NCBI GenBank assembly: GCA_018663505.1
Contig: JABJQG010000003.1
Location: 124,001 to 188,000 of the forward strand
Direction: 5' to 3'
From: Pseudobdellovibrionaceae bacterium
GTDB lineage: Bacteria > Bdellovibrionota > Bdellovibrionia > Bdellovibrionales > UBA1609
Length of the DNA: 64,000 nucleotides
Shown here piece by piece: positions 47,922 through 63,829 of the stretch (positions are counted from its first letter, which is position 1; every line of letters starts with the position of its first letter). The notes below the pieces were generated by a model. The model ran no database searches and was not told the DNA's origin. It worked only from the letters and a program-made list of their open reading frames with translations. Made by a program: the position numbers and the translations under genes.

Positions 47922-49292
47922 ATGATGAAACAAATATTATTACCACTACTATTATTGTTTGCAATGGCAACAGTTAATGTTTCGTGTTCTTCGAATAAAG
48001 CTGAAGATGAAACGAAAACCGAAGCAGGAGAACAAGGGGCAACAGAAGATGGAGCCGACGATGAATTTGAAGCTGATGAAGAGTTAGTTGATGATGAAGG
48101 TGAAGAATTAGCTGACGGCGAAGGTGAAGAGGATGGCGAAGAGTTGGCAGATGAAGGGGGCGATGATTTAGAGTCTGACCTTGGAGATGATGAAGAAGGA
48201 GATGAAACTTTAGCGGATGAGGAAACACCTTCTGACGAAGAAGGCTCAGAAGGTGAAATAGCTGAAAATGATGAAGCTCTTTCTGATGAGACTACTGCTG
48301 AGGAGCCACAAGATGAAGTGGCAGAATCTTCGGAAGCTATTGAGCCTATGGATGAGTCCATGGCTGAAAACTCAGGTACAGAGTCATCTTTCGATGAAAA
48401 TTCAGAGTCGTCGGAGGAGCCTTCTGAAAAGCCAACATGGATACCAGTGAAAAAGATTGCTGATGCTCCATTTAGTAAGCGTGGAATTTTAGTGAATTCT
48501 GTTTATTTAGCTAGACCAGGTGATGATATTCAGACAATAAGCTCAAAGTTATTTGGAGCAGATAAGACAGAAGATATATTAAAGGTAAATCCAGGATTAA
48601 GCCGAGGTGTGAAAACTGGTGATAAAATATATTATAACTCTCAAAACAGACCATCTGATGATACGATTTTAAAAACATATTATGAAGATGTAGGGTTGTC
48701 GTCAGAAGTATATGTTTCAAAAGCTGGTGATAACATTAGAAAAGTTTCTATGAGTTTACTTGGAGATGAAAATTCGTGGAAAGAAGTATGGGCTACAAAT
48801 CTAAATGTTGAGTCTAAAGGTGAAATTGAAGAAGGAACACAATTAAGATATTGGGCTTCCACAGATGCTATGCCTAATATGGCTATGAATAACGAGCCAG
48901 AAATGCCACCAACTCCAGAACCATTAGCACCACCACAACAGGCCATGAACGAAATGCCCCCTCCCCCAGCTCCACCTGCAGATTTACCACCACCGCCACC
49001 TGCGCCGCCACAGCAGGCGATGAATGATTTGCCGCCTCCACCCCCACCAGCGCCCCCAGAGGCCGTGTCTGCAGGCTCTTTAGAACCACCACCGCCCCCC
49101 CCAGCTCCACCTAAGAGAAAAAGAAGAGCTAAGAAAAAGAAAAAAGCTGTAGCTATGAGCGATGATAAAGATAATTTAATGTATATTGCCCTTGGTGGTT
49201 TGTTTCTTCTCGCTGGTATAGTAATTTATGCTAGAAAGAGGAAGTCTAAGTCTTCTACAATGGATTTTAATACTCATACTCAAATAGAATAG
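47922..49292 (+). CDS. Acidic LysM protein with proline-rich region and C-terminal membrane anchor
   Basis: 456 residues. N-terminal signal (ILLPLLLLFAMATVNVSC) of a lipoprotein-like kind, then a very acidic stretch (about 25-165, mostly Asp/Glu/Gly/Ala). Two LysM-like units: VYLARPGDDIQTISSKLFG with LKVNPGLSRGVKTGDKI, and VYVSKAGDNIRKVSMSLLG. Next a Pro-rich run (about 325-395) with many PPPPAPP, a block of basic residues (KRKRRAKKKKK) and a membrane helix (YIALGGLFLLAGIVIYA) ending basic. So it could span the periplasm, hold peptidoglycan by LysM and anchor in the inner membrane. The layout recalls FimV/TonB-like proteins. Unknown function. Confidence 0.75.
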   Translation: MMKQILLPLLLLFAMATVNVSCSSNKAEDETKTEAGEQGATEDGADDEFEADEELVDDEGEELADGEGEEDGEELADEGGDDLESDLGDDEEGDETLADEETPSDEEGSEGEIAENDEALSDETTAEEPQDEVAESSEAIEPMDESMAENSGTESSFDENSESSEEPSEKPTWIPVKKIADAPFSKRGILVNSVYLARPGDDIQTISSKLFGADKTEDILKVNPGLSRGVKTGDKIYYNSQNRPSDDTILKTYYEDVGLSSEVYVSKAGDNIRKVSMSLLGDENSWKEVWATNLNVESKGEIEEGTQLRYWASTDAMPNMAMNNEPEMPPTPEPLAPPQQAMNEMPPPPAPPADLPPPPPAPPQQAMNDLPPPPPPAPPEAVSAGSLEPPPPPPAPPKRKRRAKKKKKAVAMSDDKDNLMYIALGGLFLLAGIVIYARKRKSKSSTMDFNTHTQIE

Positions 49293-51947: not shown

Positions 51948-53669
51948 TTAAATCGTAGACCGAATGACTTCATCAATAGTTGTGGTTCCGCTCACAATTT
52001 TCTCTATTCCATTATTACGCATAGTTTTGAAATTGGTCTTTTTTACAATTTTTTCTAAATCCTGAGACGTTTGTCCAGAATTTATTGCAGATCGAGCTTC
52101 TTTATTAGGTACAAAAATTTCGTAAATCCCCTCACGTCCTGTGTAACCTGAGTTGTAGCATTTTTCACATCCCACTTCTTTGTAGATTTTATGATTCTCT
52201 AGCTCTTGTTCCTCTAATAGTGGATGCTGTTTTTCATCCGAAGTAAGTTCTTTCTTACAATGGTCACATAAGCGGCGAACAAGCCTTTGAGAAATTATAC
52301 CAACTAAGGATGACGAGATTAAAAAAGGATCAATTCCAATATCCATTAGCCTATTAACAGCAGAGAGGGCGTCGTTTGTATGTATAGTAGAGATAACTAG
52401 GTGCCCAGTAAGAGCAGCTCGCACGGCAATTTCTGCAGTTTCACGATCTCTAATTTCTCCAACCATTATAATATCAGGATCTTGTCTTAAAATATTTTTT
52501 AAAATTGTAGAAAAACCTAAGTTAATTTTGGGGTTAACTTGGACCTGGTTTATCATCTTAATTTGGTATTCCACAGGGTCTTCAACAGTGATAATATTTT
52601 TTTCAACAGAGTTAAGGTAGTTGATCATGGAATAAACACTTGTAGTTTTGCCGCTACCAGTTGGGCCAGTAACTAATATTATTCCGTATGGATTATGTAA
52701 AAGATGTTTAACTTGGTCGGACTGTTGGGTGTTTAAGCCTAATTCAAAAAAATCTAACTTCATTTTAGATTTATCTAGAATACGCATCACAATTTTTTCG
52801 CCTTTAACAGTCGGCATTGTAGAAATTCTGAGGTCTATAGTTTTGTCGCCAAAAGTATGCATAAAGTGACCATCTTGAGGTGATCTTTTTTCTGCAATAT
52901 CCAACTGTGATAAAATTTTTATTCTAGAGATTACAGCGGCATGATGGGATATTGGTAGCTCCAGACTTTTTTCCAAAATGCCATCAATTCTTTCTCTTAT
53001 CTGTAAAACATCTTCTTGAGGTTCAATATGTATATCACTAGCTTGGTGTGAAAGTGCTTGTTCAATGATACGGTTAACTAGGGCCTCAATTTGACCAATA
53101 TGTTCTTTTTCAATACCGGCAGAAGCTTTTTTAAATAAATTGCCAATACTAGAGGTTTCATTTTCACTGGAGCTTTGGTTACTAATAGTGAGTGAACTAT
53201 TTTGTAAAATGGATGTGATTTGGGATGAAGAGGCCACATATATTTTGTATTCCATTAAAATAAGCTTACGTATTTTACTCATATTAAGAACGTTAAGAGG
53301 GTCAGCAACAGCAATTTTTAGGACATCATTTTCTATATCAAAAGGTAAGATTGTATATTGTTGAGCAATCTTGATAGGTAATTGCTTTATTGCTTTTGGA
53401 TCTGGTACAACCCCTTTTAAGTCAATAAATTCTAGTTCAAACTGTTTAGCTAGAGCTTGCGAAAGCTCGTTCTCAGTTAGGATCTGTTCTTTGGTTAAAT
53501 AGCTACCAAGACGCACTCCTTGTTCTTTAGATTGATCTAATGCATCTTCTAAGGCATCCTGAGTAATGAGGCCAAGTTCTACACAAATAGTACCAATAGG
53601 AATTCTTCTTTTTAGAAGTTTCTTTTTAGAACCATCTTCAGTAGTAATTATTTTTTTTGCAGCACTCAC
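51948..53669 (-). CDS. Type IV pilus/type II secretion assembly ATPase (MshE/PilB/GspE family)
   Basis: 573 residues. N-terminal MshEN domain with GTICVELGLITQDALEDAL and GVRLGSYLTKEQ, the type that binds c-di-GMP in MshE and PilB proteins. Motor domain with Walker A LVTGPTGSGKTTSVYSM, Walker B IIMVGEIRDRETAEIA, the His box GHLVISTIHTNDA and the zinc-type CxxC pairs (CDHCKKE and CEKCYNSG). It powers pilus or pseudopilus extension. It reads in the same direction as the PilM-secretin operon and faces away from three pseudopilin genes. Confidence 0.92.
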   Translation of the reverse strand: MSAAKKIITTEDGSKKKLLKRRIPIGTICVELGLITQDALEDALDQSKEQGVRLGSYLTKEQILTENELSQALAKQFELEFIDLKGVVPDPKAIKQLPIKIAQQYTILPFDIENDVLKIAVADPLNVLNMSKIRKLILMEYKIYVASSSQITSILQNSSLTISNQSSSENETSSIGNLFKKASAGIEKEHIGQIEALVNRIIEQALSHQASDIHIEPQEDVLQIRERIDGILEKSLELPISHHAAVISRIKILSQLDIAEKRSPQDGHFMHTFGDKTIDLRISTMPTVKGEKIVMRILDKSKMKLDFFELGLNTQQSDQVKHLLHNPYGIILVTGPTGSGKTTSVYSMINYLNSVEKNIITVEDPVEYQIKMINQVQVNPKINLGFSTILKNILRQDPDIIMVGEIRDRETAEIAVRAALTGHLVISTIHTNDALSAVNRLMDIGIDPFLISSSLVGIISQRLVRRLCDHCKKELTSDEKQHPLLEEQELENHKIYKEVGCEKCYNSGYTGREGIYEIFVPNKEARSAINSGQTSQDLEKIVKKTNFKTMRNNGIEKIVSGTTTIDEVIRSTI

Positions 53670-53807
53670 TTTTACCCCTCAGCTACATATCGGTATTAAT
53701 TTACAATTTTATAAACTGGGCTAGACTTTGTATTATGCTTGAATGAACAAGACCTTCGACACGTTTACATAAGAACATGCAGGAATTAAAATGTGGGGAG
53801 AGGTATT

Positions 53808-54281
53808 ATGATAATAAAATCAAATCATTTAGGTTTTACCTTAATAGAAATATTAATGGTAATTTTACTATTAGGTATTCTTGGTGCGGCTGCTACAAGT
53901 CAGTTTATTAATTTTAGTGATGATGCCCATGCAACGATGACGAGTGAAAAATTAGCAGCATTAAAAATTGCAATTGTGGGTGATGCAAGGAGTATTTCTG
54001 CAGGGAAATACACCAATTTGGGTTATGAGGCTCATTGTAAAGGAGTACCAGTAAGTTTGACTGACCTTATAACTCAGCCTGGTGCAGGAACGTGTTCTGT
54101 AGACTATGATCCTTTTACAAAAAGAGGATGGCGTGGGCCTTATGTATCAAATACAGATACAAATTATAATAATGATAGTTGGGGAACAGCATTAGTATAC
54201 AGTTCTGGTGGAAGAACGATTACAAGTTGTGGACCCAATGCAACTTGTACGGATGGCGATGACATACAAATTTCTTTTTAA
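53808..54281 (+). CDS. GspG/MshA-like pseudopilin
   Basis: 157 residues from the ATG at 53808, preceded by GGGAGAGG. Prepilin signal: KSNHLG followed by FTLIEILMVILLLGILGAAA, with the canonical Gly at -1 and Glu at +5. The C-terminal part has the GspG-type pattern GWRGPYV ... DSWGTALVY and ends with two Cys (TSCGPNATCTDGDD). It is the major pilin candidate of the locus. A GTG five codons earlier is possible but less likely. The next pilin gene overlaps its end by 23 bases. Confidence 0.88.
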   Translation: MIIKSNHLGFTLIEILMVILLLGILGAAATSQFINFSDDAHATMTSEKLAALKIAIVGDARSISAGKYTNLGYEAHCKGVPVSLTDLITQPGAGTCSVDYDPFTKRGWRGPYVSNTDTNYNNDSWGTALVYSSGGRTITSCGPNATCTDGDDIQISF

Positions 54282-55083
54282 TACTTTTAAATCACAAAAA
54301 GCATTTACTTTAGTAGAAATTATTATGGTTTTGGTTCTGGTGAGTATTATCAGTGTAATGTCTATAAGAGAATTTTCAGGAACACTAGAGGAAGCTCAAT
54401 TTGAAGATACTTTGAGTGAAATGAAGCAAATTCGTGATGCAATGGTTGGAAAGTTAGATTTAGTAAGTGGTGGTTCTAGATCAAATTTTGGATTTTTGGG
54501 AGACATTGGGCGTATACCAACGAACTTGGAAGGTATATCTGCACTTGTTACAAAGCCAGGCGCACTTGCAAATTGGTCATTGGATTCTACGACCCGTTTA
54601 GGCTCAGGTTGGAATGGGCCCTATTTAACTGGCGGGGACAGTGGGGTAGATTACACTACAGATGCTTGGGGCACAGCTTATGTTTACGATGCAACCGCCT
54701 CTCCACCAACCATAATCAGTCGTGGTGCAGATACGGCGGCAGGTGGTACTGGGTATGACCAAGATATTACGATTACCTTACCTGACGAAAAAAGAGTGGG
54801 AGATCTGCATGGATTTATATCTAATGCATCCATACCATTTGATAATGATGCCGAAGTAGATTTAAATTATGTGTCAGGAGGCGCGGTTACAACATCATTA
54901 GTGACTCTAACAGTTGGTGATAATGGGCACTTTGAGTTTACCAGTGTACCTTATGGTAAAGTTTCTGTTATTATTTACGAAAATAGTAAAGCTGCACCAG
55001 TAGCAACGGTTGGACCAATCTTAGTGACTATGGATAAGCCAAATGTCTTAGTTCCTTCCGAGCAAACAGATATTAATCCTTAG
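54259..55083 (+). CDS. Pseudopilin with C-terminal regulatory-like beta domain
   Basis: 274 residues from the ATG at 54259. Leader KSQKA before FTLVEIIMVLVLVSII, with Ala instead of Gly at -1 and Glu at +5. GspG-like pattern GSGWNGPYLTGG and DAWGTAYVYD near residues 110-135. After residue 175 there is a beta-sandwich unit (DLHGFISNASIPFDND, then GDNGHFEFTSVPYGK). It is a clear paralogue of the first 270 residues of the giant pseudopilin that lies opposite. It overlaps the first pilin and the next gene (one base). Confidence 0.85.
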   Translation: MTYKFLFNTFKSQKAFTLVEIIMVLVLVSIISVMSIREFSGTLEEAQFEDTLSEMKQIRDAMVGKLDLVSGGSRSNFGFLGDIGRIPTNLEGISALVTKPGALANWSLDSTTRLGSGWNGPYLTGGDSGVDYTTDAWGTAYVYDATASPPTIISRGADTAAGGTGYDQDITITLPDEKRVGDLHGFISNASIPFDNDAEVDLNYVSGGAVTTSLVTLTVGDNGHFEFTSVPYGKVSVIIYENSKAAPVATVGPILVTMDKPNVLVPSEQTDINP

Positions 55084-55562
55084 TGGAGGCAGGTATTCAA
55101 AACCAAAAAGGAATATTAATCATTGGAATAATATTGATGATTACCACAATTGGTTTTTTAGGCAGTATGGTGCTTGTGGATATGTTACCAGGGATGCAAA
55201 CAAGTGCTATTAACAAAACTTATGATATAGGAGATCAACTGAGAGTTGCTCTGGACAAATATCGTTTACATCATGGTGGTGTTGCTGGGACGTTCCCCAC
55301 TGATATTGCTGATTTAATTGCCGACGACGGAAGTGGAGCTTGTGCAATGGACAATGTTCCTGCCAGTGGAACCTACTTAACCTTGCAGGGATGGTGCGGT
55401 CCATATTTAGATTTAGTAACTACTAATAATTCTACTAAGTATGAGCGTGATGGATGGGGAAATGATTATTCTTATGATAATGCCACAGGCATTTTTTATA
55501 GTTTTGGACCAGATCAAACTGATGACACTGGCGGAAATGATGATATTAGTTTCAATCCATAA
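55083..55562 (+). CDS. Pseudopilin-like protein lacking Glu-5
   Basis: 159 residues from a GTG that shares one base with the previous stop. The N-terminus NQKG followed by ILIIGIILMITTIGFLG looks like a prepilin with cleavage after Gly, but the Glu at +5 is missing, as in GspK-type minor pilins that sit at the tip. The rest is GspG-like (LQGWCGPYLDL, RDGWGNDYSYD, ending GGNDDISF). It probably is a minor component of the filament. Confidence 0.7.
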   Translation: MEAGIQNQKGILIIGIILMITTIGFLGSMVLVDMLPGMQTSAINKTYDIGDQLRVALDKYRLHHGGVAGTFPTDIADLIADDGSGACAMDNVPASGTYLTLQGWCGPYLDLVTTNNSTKYERDGWGNDYSYDNATGIFYSFGPDQTDDTGGNDDISFNP

Positions 55563-55646: not shown

Positions 55647-58190
55647 TTAATCGTAGCCAAACATAACTGTCTCATCTCTATCCCCGGCACCTGTATCTGT
55701 TTTTGGTTGGTACCAAGCTTGAAAGCGCACATTGGTAGAAATAAATCGATGGCCAGCATTAGTTGAGCCCACTCGCACCTTGTATGGGGCGTTAGGATCT
55801 GCTCCCGAACGAGCGAGAGTTAATTCTGTGGTTCCTCCGCCCGGGGCAATCATGTCTATGGTTCCGGGAGCTATAGAAGCCATGGCCACCCAATCAGAAT
55901 TTACATTGATTGCAAACCGGTATTTTAAAAATCCGGTGGGAACGAGAGGGGCTGCGCAACTCCCATCTGCATCAGCATAAGAATTTCCAATAATGGGATA
56001 ATCTGCAGTGATGCGAAACGAATTATCCCTGTACAAGCCTGAAGTTCCTGTTTGGTTTATATTTAAAACCGACCCTAATGTCATGGTTCCAGTATTTGTT
56101 GAACTGTTAGAATGAACTCCGCTATAAGGATTACTGGTTATGGTAGTTGATACCTTGGCATCTCTAGAAGGGATGCCAAGTAAACTTGTGCTACTTGGCA
56201 TTAGAGGATGAGGATCCACAACACGTGATGACTGTGTGGAGTAAATAAATCCTATGATTAAACCTGTTGAGGTTAACTCATAGCCTCCATTTGAGCCCAG
56301 TGAAAAAGTGTGATTATCACCTGCGGCTAGGGTAACAGAGGACTGTGAAACGCCCGCCTTAAAAACTTCTACATCTGTGGCTTCAAAAGCATGAACATTG
56401 ACTTTATGTGGCGGGTTTCTATTTCCATTGAAAATAAAATCTTTTCCGGCCCAGCTTGAGGTGCTCCAAACCATATTACCTTTTTTATTATCATTCCCAG
56501 AACCTAAGCGGCCAGCTACAAAAAATTCTTTATCTGAAGATAAATGATCATTAAGTACACTTGTAAAACGATAGGTGTCCCCCGCATTGACAAGAGTGGT
56601 TAAAGTTGTGCCTGAGGGGTATGTTGCATTTGTTAATGTGATCACGGCGCCAGCCTCTATGGCTACAATCGCGGAATCTATGGCGCCCCCTAAGTTAAAG
56701 GCTGAGTGAACAGTGGGGTCAAAGAAAGGATCATTCGGCGCTGTATCCCCAGTCACAATATTAGAGAAAGCTCCCCAAGAACCATTAAAGGCTTTTACCC
56801 TAAAGTTGTATTCAGTTTCAGCAGTCAACCCAGAGATAGTTGATGTGGTGTCTGCTGAGACCCCATCCACAAAGGTGAGCCAAATACCTGAAGCAGATTC
56901 TTTGTACTCCACTTGGTAGTCTGTAATGACCGGAATAACGGGGTCTGTGGACCAACCAATGTCAATCTCTGTAGTTGCGATCCCAGTGATGATAAGGTCT
57001 TTTGCAATGGGGACGGCAGGGTTCTCGTCATCATTAATGGTATAGGTGAGTACAGAAGTTCCAAGTATAGTTCCAACAGGATGAGGATTAGAAATAGTAG
57101 CTGTAAGAGTTTCATCGGTTTCAGTGGCGCCATCGTCTAAAATCACAATAGGTAAATTGGCAGATGTATTTCCAGATAAGATGGTTACTGTACCAGTTGT
57201 GGAAGTGTAGTCCGCTCCTCCTGTGGCCGATCCATCAGCTAAAGCATAGTCCACAGTCATATCCGAACCACAATATCCAGAGGCTTCTACAATAAGGTTA
57301 GCAGGAGAAACATTTTCAGCATCATTTGAAGTGGAAGACTGAAAACCAATGGTGAGACCCGAGCAACCCCAGTTACTTGGTAAAAGATTTGTTCGGTTTG
57401 CTGGAATTAAGTATTCAGAAGATCCCACACTAAAAACAACTGGACCATAAGTGGTTGTGGGTAAGGCTTGAGATGGAAAATATACTGTAAATGAGCGAAC
57501 TCCCATAGGAATGTTAGTGAAAGAAAATGATCCATTATCCCCCGCCACAACAGTATCTGTACTGGTTGTCAAAACGCCTGATCCATTGGGGTAGTTAAAT
57601 ACCACTTCAGCATCACCCGAAAAAACAGAACCGTTATCTAAGATCACACCGTACACATTGGCTTTATACGTATTATCAGGCAGCTGTATTACAATATCCT
57701 GATTCAGAGCGGTGCCACCGGCCACGCCATCAGCTCCTCTACTAGTAAGTGTTGGGGGGGTGGCCGTTGGCGCATATACATAGGCATTCCCCCATGCATC
57801 TGTGGTCCAATCTTGTGCTAAAGATCCAGAGCTTAAATATGGCCCATTCCAGCCCACCCCAATTCTTTCTGTTGCATCAACAGCCCAGCCAGTAACGGGA
57901 ACCCCTGGATTAACTGTTAAAGCAGCCAGCCCCTGGACTGCTGAGGGAATTCCACCTACGTCACCCAGGTATCCAAAGCTAATTCGTGATCCCCCTTGCT
58001 TTAGATTAGGGTCTCCAACTAAAGCATTTCGAATTTCTAACATTTCATTACGGGTGGACTCGAAAGAATTTTCAGAAAAGCTGTCTCCAATTTCAACAAC
58101 CGCAACGGAAGTGAGTACTGCAATTAATAAAATTGCCATGATTACTTCTATTAGGGTAAATCCACTATTTTTATTTATAAGCTTAGTCAT
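55647..58190 (-). CDS. Giant 847-residue pseudopilin with Calx-beta and fibronectin type III domains
   Basis: Prepilin start MTKLINKNSG, cleavage after Gly-10, then FTLIEVIMAILLIAVL with Glu at +5. Residues 11-175 are a GspG-like pilin (GVGWNGPYLSSG, DAWGNAYVYA). About 178-270 is a regulatory-like beta unit paralogous to the plus-strand pilin at 54259. About 279-388 is a Calx-beta domain (ATGGADYTSTTGTVTI, DDGATETDETLTATISN, TINDDE). About 393-483 is a fibronectin type III domain (DYQVEYKESASG, ISGLTAETEYNFRVKAFN). The last 360 residues are a beta-rich region I do not recognise. AGAGG precedes the ATG. The tip of the filament could carry this as an adhesin. Confidence 0.85.
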   Translation of the reverse strand: MTKLINKNSGFTLIEVIMAILLIAVLTSVAVVEIGDSFSENSFESTRNEMLEIRNALVGDPNLKQGGSRISFGYLGDVGGIPSAVQGLAALTVNPGVPVTGWAVDATERIGVGWNGPYLSSGSLAQDWTTDAWGNAYVYAPTATPPTLTSRGADGVAGGTALNQDIVIQLPDNTYKANVYGVILDNGSVFSGDAEVVFNYPNGSGVLTTSTDTVVAGDNGSFSFTNIPMGVRSFTVYFPSQALPTTTYGPVVFSVGSSEYLIPANRTNLLPSNWGCSGLTIGFQSSTSNDAENVSPANLIVEASGYCGSDMTVDYALADGSATGGADYTSTTGTVTILSGNTSANLPIVILDDGATETDETLTATISNPHPVGTILGTSVLTYTINDDENPAVPIAKDLIITGIATTEIDIGWSTDPVIPVITDYQVEYKESASGIWLTFVDGVSADTTSTISGLTAETEYNFRVKAFNGSWGAFSNIVTGDTAPNDPFFDPTVHSAFNLGGAIDSAIVAIEAGAVITLTNATYPSGTTLTTLVNAGDTYRFTSVLNDHLSSDKEFFVAGRLGSGNDNKKGNMVWSTSSWAGKDFIFNGNRNPPHKVNVHAFEATDVEVFKAGVSQSSVTLAAGDNHTFSLGSNGGYELTSTGLIIGFIYSTQSSRVVDPHPLMPSSTSLLGIPSRDAKVSTTITSNPYSGVHSNSSTNTGTMTLGSVLNINQTGTSGLYRDNSFRITADYPIIGNSYADADGSCAAPLVPTGFLKYRFAINVNSDWVAMASIAPGTIDMIAPGGGTTELTLARSGADPNAPYKVRVGSTNAGHRFISTNVRFQAWYQPKTDTGAGDRDETVMFGYD

Positions 58191-58295: not shown

Positions 58296-59564
58296 TTATA
58301 TTTTAATAATTTTAGGTGTGATTAATATCAGTAGTTCTTTGTCTCTATCAGATGAAGTTTTAGATTTAAATAACCATCCAATAAAAGGAATTTTAGAAAG
58401 CCATGGTACTCCACTTTCTGACTTTGAATGAGAATTTTTGATAAGGCCAGCCATGGTTGCTGTCTGAGAGTTATTAACAATAATGGTAGTTTGTGCAGAG
58501 TTGTCAATAATTCCGGGTATTCCATCTACAGCAGTGCTTTCAACCGCCTCGCTGTTAACAACATTAATCACAAGTTTTACTTTGTTATCTCCGACTATAG
58601 TTGGAGTCACTGATAGTGTGAGGCCAGCTGTAATTTGTGCAACTCCAGAAGTCACTGCAGAACTATCAGTGGAGTCAGAAGCCGTGGATAATGTTTTTAC
58701 ATTATAGGTAATTCCACTGGTTATATTTGCGGGTTGATTATTAATAGTCATAATTTTTGGTCGTGAAATAACTTCTGCATCTCCATTAGTTTCAGCGGCA
58801 AGAATTCTAGCAAAGAGTCTGCGTCCATCCACTTGTCCTATGGCAGCTTTTAATGCAAAATTTGGAGTTTTCGGTGATGGGTTAAGGATTGCACCAGATA
58901 CATTTGTGGCATTAACTAAGGTAGGGTCATCTAAGTCTCCATAAGATAAACCAAGCTCTTTTGACATATTTTTATTTATTTCCACAATCTGTGCTTCAAT
59001 TAAGATTTGTTGTGGCATAATATCAAACATTTTAATGAAAGATTTTACTTTTTGAATACTTAATTCAGAACCTAAAACAGCAATAGAGTTTGTGGCACTA
59101 TGAATTATCAAGTTTTCTTTTTCTTTAAGCAATTTTCTGATTTCAGGTTCTATATCTTTTGCAATTAGGTATTTAAGTTTAATAAGACGGGAGTCATCTA
59201 TCATTTTAGAGTTTATTGAACTGCCTTGAGCAATGTTGCCAGAAGAATCTGTAGACTTGTTTGTTATATAGAGAACATGCTTACTAATTGTGTAGGAAAA
59301 ATTATGTGTGTTTGACATACGATCTAATGCATCTCGTGCGGATATATTTTTAAATGAGAAAGAAACATTTGATTTAACATCTTCAGAAACCACTATTTTC
59401 ATATCTACTTTTTTAGCTAAGAGCTCCACGGCGTTTCTTAGTGATGTGTTATGAAAGTTAATAGTAAATTTTTTGTTTAAAAATTCCTCAGGATAAGTAT
59501 GTGCTCTACCAGGATCTGAAGACAGAAATAAAATACTCATAATTAATAGAATAAATATTTTCAT
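58296..59564 (-). CDS. Secretin (MshL/PilQ/GspD family)
   Basis: 422 residues with signal peptide (MKIFILLIMSILFLSS). STN-type N-domain (FTINFHNTSLRNAVELLAKK and VSFSFKNISARDALDRM), one N1-type domain, then the secretin core: QILIEAQIVEINK, SRPKIMTINNQPANI, GLTLSVTPTIVGDNK and the end VPWLSKIPFIGWLFK. Shorter than most MshL or GspD. It forms the outer-membrane gate. The ATG overlaps the stop of the PilP-like gene. Confidence 0.92.
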   Translation of the reverse strand: MKIFILLIMSILFLSSDPGRAHTYPEEFLNKKFTINFHNTSLRNAVELLAKKVDMKIVVSEDVKSNVSFSFKNISARDALDRMSNTHNFSYTISKHVLYITNKSTDSSGNIAQGSSINSKMIDDSRLIKLKYLIAKDIEPEIRKLLKEKENLIIHSATNSIAVLGSELSIQKVKSFIKMFDIMPQQILIEAQIVEINKNMSKELGLSYGDLDDPTLVNATNVSGAILNPSPKTPNFALKAAIGQVDGRRLFARILAAETNGDAEVISRPKIMTINNQPANITSGITYNVKTLSTASDSTDSSAVTSGVAQITAGLTLSVTPTIVGDNKVKLVINVVNSEAVESTAVDGIPGIIDNSAQTTIIVNNSQTATMAGLIKNSHSKSESGVPWLSKIPFIGWLFKSKTSSDRDKELLILITPKIIKI

Positions 59565-60016
59565 TTCGTATCCTTCTTGTTCTGCTTTTCAGATGCAATA
59601 TCCCGTTGTGTTTCTGTCACGGTTTCTTCAACAACACTCGTCTCAGCCATTTTAAATACAGATGGAAGTTGTAGTTCTCGGGTAGAGCTGCCGTTACTTA
59701 AAATCACATAATTTGTTCCTATATCTTTTACTTGAAAACCTCCATCAAGGTATTGATTAACAGAGAATTCTCTACCATCAATTATTGCTATGGGGTTATT
59801 CGCTTCATACACTAAGCCTTGTAGTTTAAAATCATATTTAGTTTTTACTTCTGCACTATAACCAGGAGACTTTAAAAAAGGGTCATGAGCCCATTTTTCT
59901 ACAATATTTTGTTCAAGTAAGTGAGCGTTGGAATCAAAGAAAACCTGTTCTTCGGCAGCAACATTGTTGAAGATTAAAAATATAAATGATAATGTAACAA
60001 GGGTAAAATTCATCAT
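59561..60016 (-). CDS. PilP/MshK-like periplasmic protein
   Basis: 151 residues with signal peptide ending NNVAA. The segment WAHDPFLKSP, then LQGLVYEANNPIAIIDG, VKDIGTNYVILS and a strand closing RELQLP follow the PilP/GspC homology-region pattern, which links the inner-membrane complex to the secretin. The C-terminus is Glu/Lys-rich. Coupled by ATGA overlaps to both neighbours. Confidence 0.75.
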   Translation of the reverse strand: MMNFTLVTLSFIFLIFNNVAAEEQVFFDSNAHLLEQNIVEKWAHDPFLKSPGYSAEVKTKYDFKLQGLVYEANNPIAIIDGREFSVNQYLDGGFQVKDIGTNYVILSNGSSTRELQLPSVFKMAETSVVEETVTETQRDIASEKQNKKDTK

Positions 60017-60570
60017 TGTTCCCTCAGAAAAGTGTAACTATTTACTTTTACAATGGATGTGCATTTTAAAAGATCATCATCGAGCTTCGTCAACTTAATT
60101 GAATTGACTTCAACTAAGTATTTTGAATTCTCTAACTCCTCTAAAAACTCTCCTAGCCCTATAAATGAGGATTGGATTTCTAGCTTTATTTTGTTTTTAG
60201 TGTAACCGTCAAACTTTGTGGATTTTTCAACTTGAATTTTTTGAATTTTAAATTTTTCAGGGTTTTTTTCAAAACTAAGTTCAGCAATAAGATTAGAAAA
60301 ATACCGACTAGAACTAAGGTGTTTTTCTAATTGAGATTTTAAAGATGATTTTAATGAAATATTTTTCTTTGATTTTTGAATTTGGAGAAGATTTTTTTGT
60401 TGCATACTTACTTGGTTGATTAAATTAGTTAATTTTGCTTTCATTTCTTTTGTTTCAATACTTTTTTTTGAGTACCAATATTTATTAAAAGCAAAGCTAA
60501 CAAGCAAGAAGCTTACTAATATTAAAGCACGTTCTCTATTAGAAAATTTAATACTTTTTAATTTTATCAT
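60013..60570 (-). CDS. PilO/MshJ-like membrane protein
   Basis: 185 residues: a single N-terminal membrane helix (RALILVSFLLVSFAFNKYWY), a coiled-coil stretch with many Lys and Glu (about 40-85), and a ferredoxin-like periplasmic end (SSFIGLGEFLEELENSKYLVEV). This is the PilO/GspM layout; the sequence itself is diverged, so position in the operon is the strongest support. ATGA overlaps on both sides. Confidence 0.75.
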   Translation of the reverse strand: MIKLKSIKFSNRERALILVSFLLVSFAFNKYWYSKKSIETKEMKAKLTNLINQVSMQQKNLLQIQKSKKNISLKSSLKSQLEKHLSSSRYFSNLIAELSFEKNPEKFKIQKIQVEKSTKFDGYTKNKIKLEIQSSFIGLGEFLEELENSKYLVEVNSIKLTKLDDDLLKCTSIVKVNSYTFLREQ

Positions 60571-61163
60571 TTTCTCCCCTTGGTGATATTTTTAGGGACA
60601 GAAGCTACTTTACTATTTTGAGTTTTAAACTGAAATTTAAAAAGTTCAGGTGTATATTGATCCATAATCTCTGAGAACGAAATACTCACCTTATTATAAT
60701 AGTAAGAGCGCTCAAGTGATCTGAAGAAATTTGCCATTTGATATTGTGAGGAGGTTTCACCTTCGATAAGTAGCTCTAAATTGCCATTTGTATTTGTTGC
60801 ATCAAATTTTGAAAGCCAAGTATCACTGGGTATTAGATGACTAATTTCTTTAAATGCTTTGGACCATTTATATTGGCTATCGGTAATGCCCGAAACAAGT
60901 TTTCTTTGTGCTGCACTTCTCCTACCTTTTTCGTTATCAATTTCAATCTCGGAAATATTTTTACTTAATTTTCTGTTTACTTGTTGAACTAGAAGAAGCT
61001 GAGCACTTATGTTTTTTTTGTGAAAATGAAGGCTGACAGTAGAAATAGCTCCATAACATAGAATAACTAACATAAAAGCTAGGATCAATAGATCTGGCCC
61101 CTGTTGTTTAGATTTCAAATAGCTTTCAGGCATAAGGTTTATGCGTTTTTTTTGAAAACTCAT
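60567..61163 (-). CDS. PilN-like membrane protein
   Basis: 198 residues. The cytoplasmic tail RINLMPESYLKSKQ carries the conserved N-L-x-P that binds PilM; one membrane helix (LLILAFMLVILCYGAIS), a coiled coil and a periplasmic domain (DTWLSKFDATNTNGNLELLI) follow. It forms the inner-membrane platform with PilO. Its start overlaps the pilM stop (ATGA). Confidence 0.82.
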   Translation of the reverse strand: MSFQKKRINLMPESYLKSKQQGPDLLILAFMLVILCYGAISTVSLHFHKKNISAQLLLVQQVNRKLSKNISEIEIDNEKGRRSAAQRKLVSGITDSQYKWSKAFKEISHLIPSDTWLSKFDATNTNGNLELLIEGETSSQYQMANFFRSLERSYYYNKVSISFSEIMDQYTPELFKFQFKTQNSKVASVPKNITKGRK

Positions 61164-62227
61164 GCCACACCTCTTAAAGCCAGGCCTACGGCTGTGGCCA
61201 TCAGTGGTGCTATATGGATAATGGTCTCATTTTTTTCTTCACTTAACATATCAGAACTTTTTTGAAAAAGTTCTATGTTACGAAATGGATTTACTACTTC
61301 AACTTTTAGTTGATAGTGGTTTTCTATGATGTCTCTAATATCCGCCTTTTGGCTCCCGCCACCTGTTAAGAATATTGTATCAATTTTTTTTTTGGTTTTT
61401 TCAAGATAGTAATCAACACTTTCCTGTAGTGAATCAAAAAAATGTTCAAAGGTTTGCTCAACTATTTCTCTTAGTGATTCTTCAAGACCTTCTTGAGTTG
61501 TTAAACTATAGTCATGAATTATCTTACTTGCTTCTACATATGATATTTCTAAATGATCCATGATTGTTTGTATAATGATTCCAAATGAAAAAGGAGTGGT
61601 GTGAGAATAAAGTACCTGTGAGCCTTTTAGTAATGCCACTGATGACTGACTTTCTCCTATGTCGATAAGAACATAGTAGTGTTCTTCAGAAGGTGTATAA
61701 CCATTATATTGCAACATGCTGGCTAGTGCTAGAATATCTATATCAACAACTTGTGGTTTCAGACAGGCAGTTTCAACTGTGGCGATTTTACTTAAAAGGA
61801 TATCTTTCATAGCATAAAATACTTTTACATGGATTTCCTCATCAGATCCTAAGTTTTCAAATATAATATAATCGAAGAATATATTTTCTAGCGGTATGTT
61901 TAGTGTTTGCTCTAACTCGTTTGCAATAGCTACGGTAAGTTCTTTTTTTGGTAACATTGGGAAAACAAATTCCGTGGAGTCCATTTCACTATTGCCTAAA
62001 GAAAAACAGACTTTTTTATTCTTAAAGCCGTTAACTTCAACAGCAGCTTCCAAAGAGTATTCCATATTAGGAAACTGAGGGTAATTTTCATTTCCTTGAG
62101 TGAGATCTTGATAGAAAAAATTTTCTAAAATAATGCCTTTGTCTGTTTTTTTAAGTTCTACGGCTTTTAAGCCTCTATGACCTATGTCAATCCCAATTGC
62201 TGGATCTTTTTTATTCAGAAAGTTCAT
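61160..62227 (-). CDS. pilM: Actin-like pilus assembly protein PilM
   Basis: 355 residues from the ATG at 62227, which follows AAAGGATCTCG; an upstream in-frame start lacks a site. It has the PilM actin-like fold: AIGIDIGHRGLKAVEL, VLIDIGESQSSVALLKG, FFDSLQESVDYY and IFLTGGGSQKADI. It recruits PilN and stabilises the inner-membrane assembly complex. The MSHA equivalent is MshI. It overlaps the preceding TPR gene by 17 bases. Confidence 0.9.
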   Translation of the reverse strand: MNFLNKKDPAIGIDIGHRGLKAVELKKTDKGIILENFFYQDLTQGNENYPQFPNMEYSLEAAVEVNGFKNKKVCFSLGNSEMDSTEFVFPMLPKKELTVAIANELEQTLNIPLENIFFDYIIFENLGSDEEIHVKVFYAMKDILLSKIATVETACLKPQVVDIDILALASMLQYNGYTPSEEHYYVLIDIGESQSSVALLKGSQVLYSHTTPFSFGIIIQTIMDHLEISYVEASKIIHDYSLTTQEGLEESLREIVEQTFEHFFDSLQESVDYYLEKTKKKIDTIFLTGGGSQKADIRDIIENHYQLKVEVVNPFRNIELFQKSSDMLSEEKNETIIHIAPLMATAVGLALRGVA

Positions 62228-62969
62228 ATCGAGATCCTTTTGAATTTTCAAATTGTGCAAGGTTTTGAATTGAGTAAAGTCGTTTTTTTATTTTTTCCTT
62301 TAGAGTTTGTCTGGCCATAGGGTGACTTAGGTAGTTCAAATAAAAATTGTTTGAAACAGACCAAAGACCTCTTTGCTCGAATAAAATAGCTAGGTTGAGG
62401 ATCACTCCAGGGTTATTATTATTTAACTCATATGATGTTTTAAAATGAGCAATGGCTAAATCATATTTTTTTTGAGATTGAAAAATTATGGCTAAGTTAT
62501 TGTGAGCTATAGAGCTTTCACTTCCTTTAGATTTAATATAACTATTCAAAATTTCTATGGCTTGCATATTTTTATTTTGTTTTTTTAAACTCATTGCTAA
62601 ATTAACGGTCACTCGCTCGTTTTCTTTTTCGGATTTAAAATATTTAAGTAAAAGCTTTTCAGCCAACTGGCCACTTCCTGAGTTGAGATCTCGAATGGCT
62701 ATATTAATATCCTGATTACGTCTATTTAGATATTGTTGTTGTGGAGTTTGGTGAACTACGGCATTACTCTCATAGATTTCTTGGTGATTTTTGCCATATA
62801 TAAAATAACTGACAATAGCAATGCAGACTATAGCGAAGCTACTGATAAGGCTATATTTTACCCACTTATTTTGTTTTATCGTGGGATTGTTAATAACTTT
62901 AAAAGAGCTAAGGTTTAAATCCTTAAAATCATTTTGAAGTTGGTTTAGTTTCTTTAGGACATTGCTCAT
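62211..62969 (-). CDS. TPR-containing membrane protein (MshN-like position)
   Basis: 252 residues from the ATG at 62969, which shares ATGA with the ATPase stop. One membrane helix near residue 45 (YSLISSFAIVCIAIVSYFI), then a periplasmic part with about three TPR units (AHNNLAIIFQSQKKYDLAIAH, GVILNLAILFEQRGL). The place between the ExeA-like ATPase and PilM is that of mshN in MSHA loci. It overlaps the pilM start by 17 bases. Confidence 0.8.
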   Translation of the reverse strand: MSNVLKKLNQLQNDFKDLNLSSFKVINNPTIKQNKWVKYSLISSFAIVCIAIVSYFIYGKNHQEIYESNAVVHQTPQQQYLNRRNQDINIAIRDLNSGSGQLAEKLLLKYFKSEKENERVTVNLAMSLKKQNKNMQAIEILNSYIKSKGSESSIAHNNLAIIFQSQKKYDLAIAHFKTSYELNNNNPGVILNLAILFEQRGLWSVSNNFYLNYLSHPMARQTLKEKIKKRLYSIQNLAQFENSKGSRYELSE

Positions 62970-63829
62970 GTGAAAACCCACCTGACTCTCTGGTATATAG
63001 TATCAACGAGACTAGTACTGCTAGGAAGGTAATTATTATGCTCAAGAGCATGTTGAATCTGTTTTTTGAAAAATAAACGGTTTTTGTTTTCCGCCCCATA
63101 GTTGAGTACTAGGCTACAAATCATATTTACTAATCGAGGATTACCTTTGGATAGAGTGTAAATATAGTCTGTGGCCTCTTTTTCAAATCTTAAGTAATTA
63201 GATGCTCCAGCTGTTTCCGTAGATTCTTTAATATAAAAATAAACCTCAGAAGAGTTGAATGCCACAAGTTGTACTCGTGTAGATATTCTTTGTTCGATTT
63301 GACGACACTCATGTGAGTTTAACTTTTTTGCAAGCTCAGGTTGACCAATTAAAATGATATGAATTAATTTTTGTTTATTCATTTCAATATTGCTTAACAT
63401 GCGAATAACTTCTAAAGCATCTACGCTAAGATGTTGAGCTTCATCTACAACTAATATTGTTTTTTTATTTTCTTGAGAAGAGCAGATTAAATTTTCAGTG
63501 ATTTGGTCAAATAATTCTTTTAGATTATTAGAAGAAGCACTCTCCCCAAGCTCACCTAAAATCGCCTGAAGAAGCTCTACATCATTCAGCTTTGGGTAGA
63601 AAATTAGTGCAGAATAAAATGATTCATTGCCAAGTTCTAATAGTACACGTGATAAGAGAGTTTTTCCTAGGCCAACTTCTCCAATAAGTACACCAAAACC
63701 AGATCCGGCATCTATCATTTGCACAAGTTTGTAAAGAGCGGACTGATGCGAAGTAGATTGAAAAAAGAAATCCACATCAGGTGTTTCTGAAAATGGATTT
63801 TGTGCTAAATTGTAAAAAGCATTAAACAT
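62966..63829 (-). CDS. ExeA/GspA/MshM-type AAA ATPase
   Basis: 287 residues. It opens YNLAQNPFSETPDVDFFFQS, the ExeA start; Walker A LIGEVGLGKTLLSRVL, Walker B TILVVDEAQHLS and the arginine finger region (QRISTRVQLV) are present. ExeA-type ATPases help secretin assembly through peptidoglycan. There is no peptidoglycan-binding domain at the C-terminus, as in MshM. It is the first gene of the seven-gene coupled operon. Confidence 0.88.
   Translation of the reverse strand: MFNAFYNLAQNPFSETPDVDFFFQSTSHQSALYKLVQMIDAGSGFGVLIGEVGLGKTLLSRVLLELGNESFYSALIFYPKLNDVELLQAILGELGESASSNNLKELFDQITENLICSSQENKKTILVVDEAQHLSVDALEVIRMLSNIEMNKQKLIHIILIGQPELAKKLNSHECRQIEQRISTRVQLVAFNSSEVYFYIKESTETAGASNYLRFEKEATDYIYTLSKGNPRLVNMICSLVLNYGAENKNRLFFKKQIQHALEHNNYLPSSTSLVDTIYQRVRWVFT

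Follow-up and report, generated by a model that had tools for sequence, protein, structure and literature searches.

A giant modular prepilin from a relative of Bdellovibrio: adhesin-like cargo on a conserved pilin carrier, probably displayed by an MSH-like pilus

In the 64,000-nucleotide stretch of DNA analysed here (the window), which originates from an uncultured relative of the predatory Bdellovibrio, a single intact open frame on the reverse strand (55647-58190) encodes a giant modular prepilin of 847 amino acids. This protein is probably a modular type IV pilin that presents adhesive cargo at or near the tip of an MSH-like pilus, where we infer the tip position, the adhesion and the ligand. 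Its N-terminal part is a pilin carrier, best explained as a platform on which one cargo has repeatedly given way to another within the Bdellovibrionota.

The fusion of pilin and adhesin-like domains in one protein, which an earlier note on this DNA had described, is borne out by the uninterrupted frame and by N_methyl, T2SSG, Calx-beta and fn3 domains, all of which exceed the curated Pfam cut-offs. Residues 1-10 (58161-58190, reverse strand) form a class III prepilin leader, MTKLINKNSG/FTLIE, which contains two lysines, glycine at -1 and glutamate at +5, with a predicted cut after Gly10, and scores above the cut-offs of both N_methyl (PF07963, residues 6-30; 26.4 bits versus 21.2 in Pfam) and the prepilin motif TIGR02532 (24.1 versus 16.3 in NCBIfam). 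It is followed by a GspG-like pilin head (T2SSG, residues 76-167; 57690-57965, reverse strand; PF08334, E-value 1e-8); the GspG-like body noticed earlier thus stands as a likeness, but a true GspG was rejected at 42.5 bits for the equivalog TIGR01710, whose cut-off is 88.85. According to homologue matches and the alignment, residues about 172-269 (57384-57677, reverse strand) form a beta domain of the CNA_B or carboxypeptidase-regulatory-like type. The regulatory-like unit proposed earlier is hence recognisable in homologues through weak CarboxypepD_reg and SdrD_B matches below cut-off, but it gives no Pfam match in the giant pilin itself. This CNA_B-like domain represents both the end of the carrier, where bare homologues stop, and the fixed junction to the cargo, which here consists of a Calx-beta domain (residues 280-388; 57027-57353, reverse strand; PF03160, E-value 3e-13), a fibronectin type III domain (residues 398-480; 56751-56999, reverse strand; PF00041, E-value 7e-12) and a C-terminal domain beyond residue 480 without a Pfam match above cut-off. 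The protein thus combines a class III leader with the pilin motif and C-terminal non-pilus domains (Calx-beta, fn3 and the C-terminal domain), two of the features by which modular pilins are recognised. A full-length relative (L033, 441-2975, reverse strand, corresponding to L052, 8819-11353) is encoded by G018, a metagenome-assembled genome of another genus of the same family (Bdellovibrionales in GTDB); it shares 55% identity over nearly the whole length, has an identical domain order and is free of stops. The claim that the N-terminus carries a prepilin leader and is joined to the rest was confirmed by this relative, which is the same from end to end, and by the TIGR02532 score. For the fold of the carrier we refer to the Pfam matches, because an AlphaFold2 model of residues 1-397, calculated from four alignment rows only, was poor (pLDDT 52). 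An alignment of the whole protein including paralogues was set aside due to misaligned paralogue tails, and a promoter and terminator scan returned sites no more numerous than in shuffled sequence.

The C-terminal domain (residues 481-847, 367 residues; 55650-56750, reverse strand) had been regarded as an unknown domain of 360 residues. It is indeed a real domain, conserved in 17 further proteins, but it appears to belong to the IgGFc_binding-like family (PF17517). This assignment is made via homologues: PF17517 is matched by 12 of the 18 family members when scanned singly (best E-value 4e-10), and the whole proteins L053 and L054 exceed its cut-off (L053 with 37.6 bits versus 25.6), whereas the copy in the giant pilin itself is too divergent to be matched. 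PF17517 is present in just 18 of the 369 genomes of our Bdellovibrionota sample, and its name should not be taken to mean that this bacterium binds immunoglobulin. AlphaFold2 predicted an all-beta fold from 18 sequences (pLDDT 91.5, pTM 0.89); no PDB entry resembled this model in a fold search to any meaningful degree, TM over the query staying at or below about 0.2, and a PDB profile search with the domain gave nothing. In a viral library (BFVD) the model (m35a4349a5103) had one strong match (TM 0.80, 18% identity), Q6XLX4, which is FirrV-1-C4 of Feldmannia irregularis virus a, a virus of brown algae; we count this match as fold support only and as a hint that the fold may travel widely. Many Bdellovibrionota proteins, with lengths from about 580 to 2300 amino acids, share the C-terminal domain together with the FN3 domain before it (residues 395-847). 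Elsewhere this module is located at the ends of lipoproteins, and all family members with a complete N-terminus are lipobox proteins, as assigned by pattern, except for the giant pilin and its G018 relative. Judged from these sequences, the module appears to be common to lipid anchors and a pilin anchor within the lineage, and the adhesin-like nature ascribed earlier to the added domains holds up.

The giant pilin is encoded within a pilus gene cluster, whose MSHA-like character had been suggested before and is corroborated by genes for an ATPase, GspF, a secretin, PilM/N/O and an ExeA-like protein. Immediately upstream of the giant pilin and in the same orientation, with 105 bases in between, lies the secretin (MshL/PilQ-like; 58296-59564; PF00263, E-value 5e-47; TIGR02519 below cut-off), followed by a MshK/GspC/PilP-like protein (59561-60016; weak T2SSC/T2SSB matches and position), PilO (MshJ-like; 60013-60570; PF04350, E-value 4e-8), PilN (MshI-like; 60567-61163; PF05137, E-value 2.5e-7), PilM (61160-62260; PF11104, E-value 2e-35), a TPR protein (MshN-like; 62211-62981; by position, with similar genes in relatives' clusters) and an ExeA-like ATPase (MshM-like; 62966-63829; TIGR03015, E-value 3e-58, below cut-off), all on the reverse strand. 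On the downstream side, genes for three small pilins run convergently on the forward strand, and beyond them is an MshE-type assembly ATPase on the reverse strand. The three pilins are a small GspG-like minor pilin (53793-54281; N_methyl above cut-off, T2SSG weak), a bare carrier pilin (54208-55083, likely with an internal ATG start at 54238 or 54259), which is a paralogue of residues 1-270 of the giant pilin with 45% identity, and a small pilin without Glu5 (55083-55562; ..QKG/ILIIG..). The latter, whose homologues in five relatives likewise are without Glu5, is by its sequence a GspK/PilA-like candidate tip subunit. The ATPase (51948-53669; PF00437, PF05157) contains the MshEN c-di-GMP motif in tandem (NF053729, 47.6 bits versus a cut-off of 38), and the pilus is probably under c-di-GMP control. 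The cluster extends past the window with GspF/MshG and a MshA-like pilin (L002). By homology, counterparts of mshA, mshE, mshG, mshL and mshM, which are given as the mandatory genes of the MSH model (PMC6668835), are thus all found in one locus (window and L002). This assignment is based on gene content and homology, and we call the machine MSH-like rather than MSH because the secretin does not reach the score of the MshL equivalog (130.5 bits, cut-off 250.2). Just two prepilin peptidase matches were obtained from the genome, located on contigs C25 and C31 and not in the pilus locus, and a scan for PF05567 (T4P_PilY1) gave no match in the genome or the giant pilin, with control genomes being likewise silent. 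Near the cluster, the window also encodes a protein (47922-49292, forward strand) with a very acidic N-terminal half, a proline-rich part and a C-terminal membrane anchor; its middle is possibly LysM-like, and by eye the whole protein resembles FimV.

Another way to read this locus is as a type II-like secretion system, in which the giant pilin would be a periplasmic part of the pseudopilus tip that recognises secreted cargo or pushes it through the secretin. The pilin heads are GspG-like, and the secretin and ATPase profiles fit PilQ/PilB and GspD/GspE about equally. However, the locus holds PilM/N/O, MshM- and MshN-like genes and not the T2SS gene set, the same genome already possesses a separate T2SS-type cluster with GspD/E/F/G-type genes and a pseudopilin series on contig C27, and Calx-beta, FN3, lectin and IgGFc cargo are of kinds known from surface proteins. 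We therefore consider a secretion system unlikely. A T4aP-type cluster including a PilT-type ATPase is also encoded separately, on contig C38.

The first 270 residues of the giant pilin, comprising the leader, the alpha-1 helix, the GspG-like head and the CNA_B-like domain, represent a separate conserved unit. With a profile built from 11 copies, this carrier was found in 19 of 369 Bdellovibrionota genomes (E-values of these searches are per genome), many of the genomes compared being drafts or metagenome-assembled genomes. Twelve of the copies inspected are bare, stopping no more than 16 residues from the junction (8 of them within 2), and 18 are loaded with tails of 115-713 residues, all of which begin at the junction. 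The cargo includes small domains (115-141 residues), among which there are two or more related sets, and longer tails of 174-218 residues, both without assigned family, a Laminin_G_3 lectin (L086; E-value 1e-31), Calx-beta with a beta-helix and a glycine-rich part (L038, in G008), and the combination of Calx-beta, FN3 and IgGFc-like domain in the window protein and its G018 relative. L038 and the G018 relative are the other fusions of prepilin and Calx-beta of the kind that the earlier note had proposed to search for. Bare and loaded carriers adjoin each other in the window, G018 and G008, and at most carrier loci of relatives MSH-like machine genes are located within a few kilobases. The architecture, which had seemed isolated, is thus one member of a conserved family of carrier pilins with varied cargo. 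Since relatives attach quite different cargo to this one base at a single point, the carrier resembles a holder for exchangeable tools, placed at the tip of a sticky filament.

Several loci show peculiarities of their own. In the carrier pilin encoded at L090 (4099-5655, reverse strand), a laminin-G lectin is not appended C-terminally but is an insertion that separates the N-terminal helix from the GspG head. The loaded carrier of G008 (L038, 13262-16213, forward strand) has no ATG, GTG or TTG 5' of its leader; an in-frame ATA is found about 7 bases 3' of GGAGG, and this could reflect an atypical start, a mutation or an error in the sequence. In G276, two clusters (L093, 1968-5462, forward strand; L094, 4585-7798, reverse strand) together encode six or more loaded carriers, each with a tail of 115-138 residues, several of which are related. 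Pilins of more than 350 residues had been considered rare, but this did not hold for the genome of the giant pilin, which encodes four further prepilins of 606-747 amino acids that are of an unrelated kind (L079, 6840-9083, 9085-10905 and 10902-13109, forward strand; L080, 5957-7942, reverse strand). They are cysteine-rich, three of them in tandem, show no Pfam domain beyond the leader, and are a separate giant-pilin family.

The phylogenies of carrier and cargo disagree, which indicates that cargo has been replaced or exchanged. In the carrier tree (11 rows, five open forks) the window copy is paired with that of G012 (99/98), whose 218-residue tail is dissimilar to the window cargo, and the G018 copy is paired with that of G008 (98/96), whose tail consists of Calx-beta and a beta-helix. 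Forcing together the carriers of the window and G018, a pair picked by cargo and not from the carrier tree, was rejected (AU test, p = 0.004). In the cargo tree, on the other hand, the copies of window and G018 form a sister pair (100/100) in a group with lipoproteins. According to these trees, the cargo has changed on two or more occasions without a corresponding change of carrier, whether through transfer or through replacement; we do not claim strong horizontal transfer, as replacement on vertically inherited carriers fits the trees equally well.

Tip adhesin is the best-supported role for the giant pilin, which is favoured by modular pilins proven as adhesins elsewhere, by the neighbouring pilin without Glu5 and by the presence of the C-terminal module at the ends of lipoproteins. 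A prepilin peptidase would cut the carrier pilin, which would then be assembled by the MSH-like machine. The small pilin without Glu5 (55083-55562) may start or cap the tip, as proposed for GspK and for PilA of S. sanguinis, which are without Glu5 as well (PMC9934059), and the loaded carrier would adjoin it at or near the filament tip. Calx-beta and FN3 would form a spacer that projects the IgGFc-like domain outermost, where it would act as the adhesin; possible ligands are prey, a surface and matrix. Pilus assembly would be set by c-di-GMP via MshE, and retraction might be performed by the PilT-type ATPase encoded on C38. Modular pilins could also occupy the filament body, according to a survey (PMC8179133), and the giant pilin might be a low-abundance shaft subunit that decorates rather than caps the filament. 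It keeps Glu5 and should be able to pack beneath other pilins, and the paralogous bare carriers could intercalate likewise; yet a helical shaft would become crowded by several hundred added residues, and the modular pilins with solved structures were modelled at the tip (PMC9934059), so that we regard a shaft position as quite improbable. It is very doubtful that the carrier is a mere export route from which the cargo is freed by proteolysis as a soluble or matrix protein: the C-terminal module does exist on other anchors too and the linker that follows the carrier is glycine-rich in some homologues, but a protease site or partner was not found, and the carrier with its CNA_B unit is tightly conserved in the alignment. 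A frame error, an assembly chimera or a decayed gene, conceivable for a draft genome of 72 contigs, is for practical purposes excluded by the relative from another genus with the same architecture, and by domain scores exceeding the cut-offs.

One could tentatively go further and see in the carrier a dedicated cargo socket of the Bdellovibrionota, at whose fixed junction adhesin domains, partly from the lipoprotein adhesins of the lineage, are swapped, retargeting the specificity of the tip for prey or surfaces much like phage receptor-binding proteins. What seemed an isolated oddity becomes a testable rule of one pilin carrier, one junction and many cargos, which applies in a lineage that includes prey-invading predators. 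In addition, the adhesin-like C-terminal domain, to which no solved structure proved related in our searches, now has a probable family name and a confident model, and the prediction is that related bacteria display the same domain on two anchors, lipid and pilus.

Modular pilins as such were described in 2021 in a survey of 264 architectures, whose most frequent grafts include FN3 (IPR003961), PF13620 and PF13385 (PMC8179133). PilB and PilC of S. sanguinis, proven as adhesins (PMC8179133, PMC9934059), share with the giant pilin the class III leader, a small pilin module and a bulky C-terminal functional domain, and the small partner pilin without Glu5 has a counterpart in PilA. In contrast to PilB and PilC, the protein described here is associated with a diderm MSH-like machine, its carrier has two domains (GspG-like and CNA_B-like), its multi-domain cargo ends in an IgGFc_binding-like domain, and one carrier bears many cargos at one junction. 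The locus itself resembles the MSH pilus in its MshE with c-di-GMP motif, MshG, MshL, MshM, MshN, PilM/N/O-type proteins and MshA-like pilin, and also in having no prepilin peptidase, a feature reported for MSH loci (PMC6668835, PMC7096442); it differs in that its secretin does not attain the MshL cut-off and its large subunit is a fused prepilin. In V. cholerae, MshE binds c-di-GMP through the MshEN motif (PMC5013675) and MSHA uses PilT for retraction (PMC7096442). The taxa named in the accessible part of the MSH survey are gamma- and epsilon-proteobacteria and Chrysiogenetes, with Bdellovibrionota not among them (PMC6668835). The MSH pilus of Vibrio cholerae includes the putative adhesin MshQ. 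The Kil Tad-pilus tips of Myxococcus xanthus, a predator with four paralogous tip sets, likewise are customised by minor pilins with added modular domains (PMC12075869); they are likened here by description and differ in their Tad machinery and KilLMN pilins. With IgGFc_binding proteins (PF17517) the cargo shares, through its homologues, family matches (at least two whole proteins above cut-off) and the all-beta predicted fold, despite the divergence of the window domain. Bd0875 of Bdellovibrio is a lipid-anchored lipobox adhesin of the same lineage (PMC11003981), and lipobox proteins are also where the C-terminal module otherwise occurs; Bd0875 is, however, a MIDAS protein and not a pilin fusion. 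No report of Calx-beta or IgGFc-like pilins was found in the literature, in which the 2021 survey was represented without its dataset. Thus, while modular pilins are known, what is new here is that a conserved carrier takes up varied cargo at a fixed junction, and that one cargo is shared between lipid and pilus anchors.
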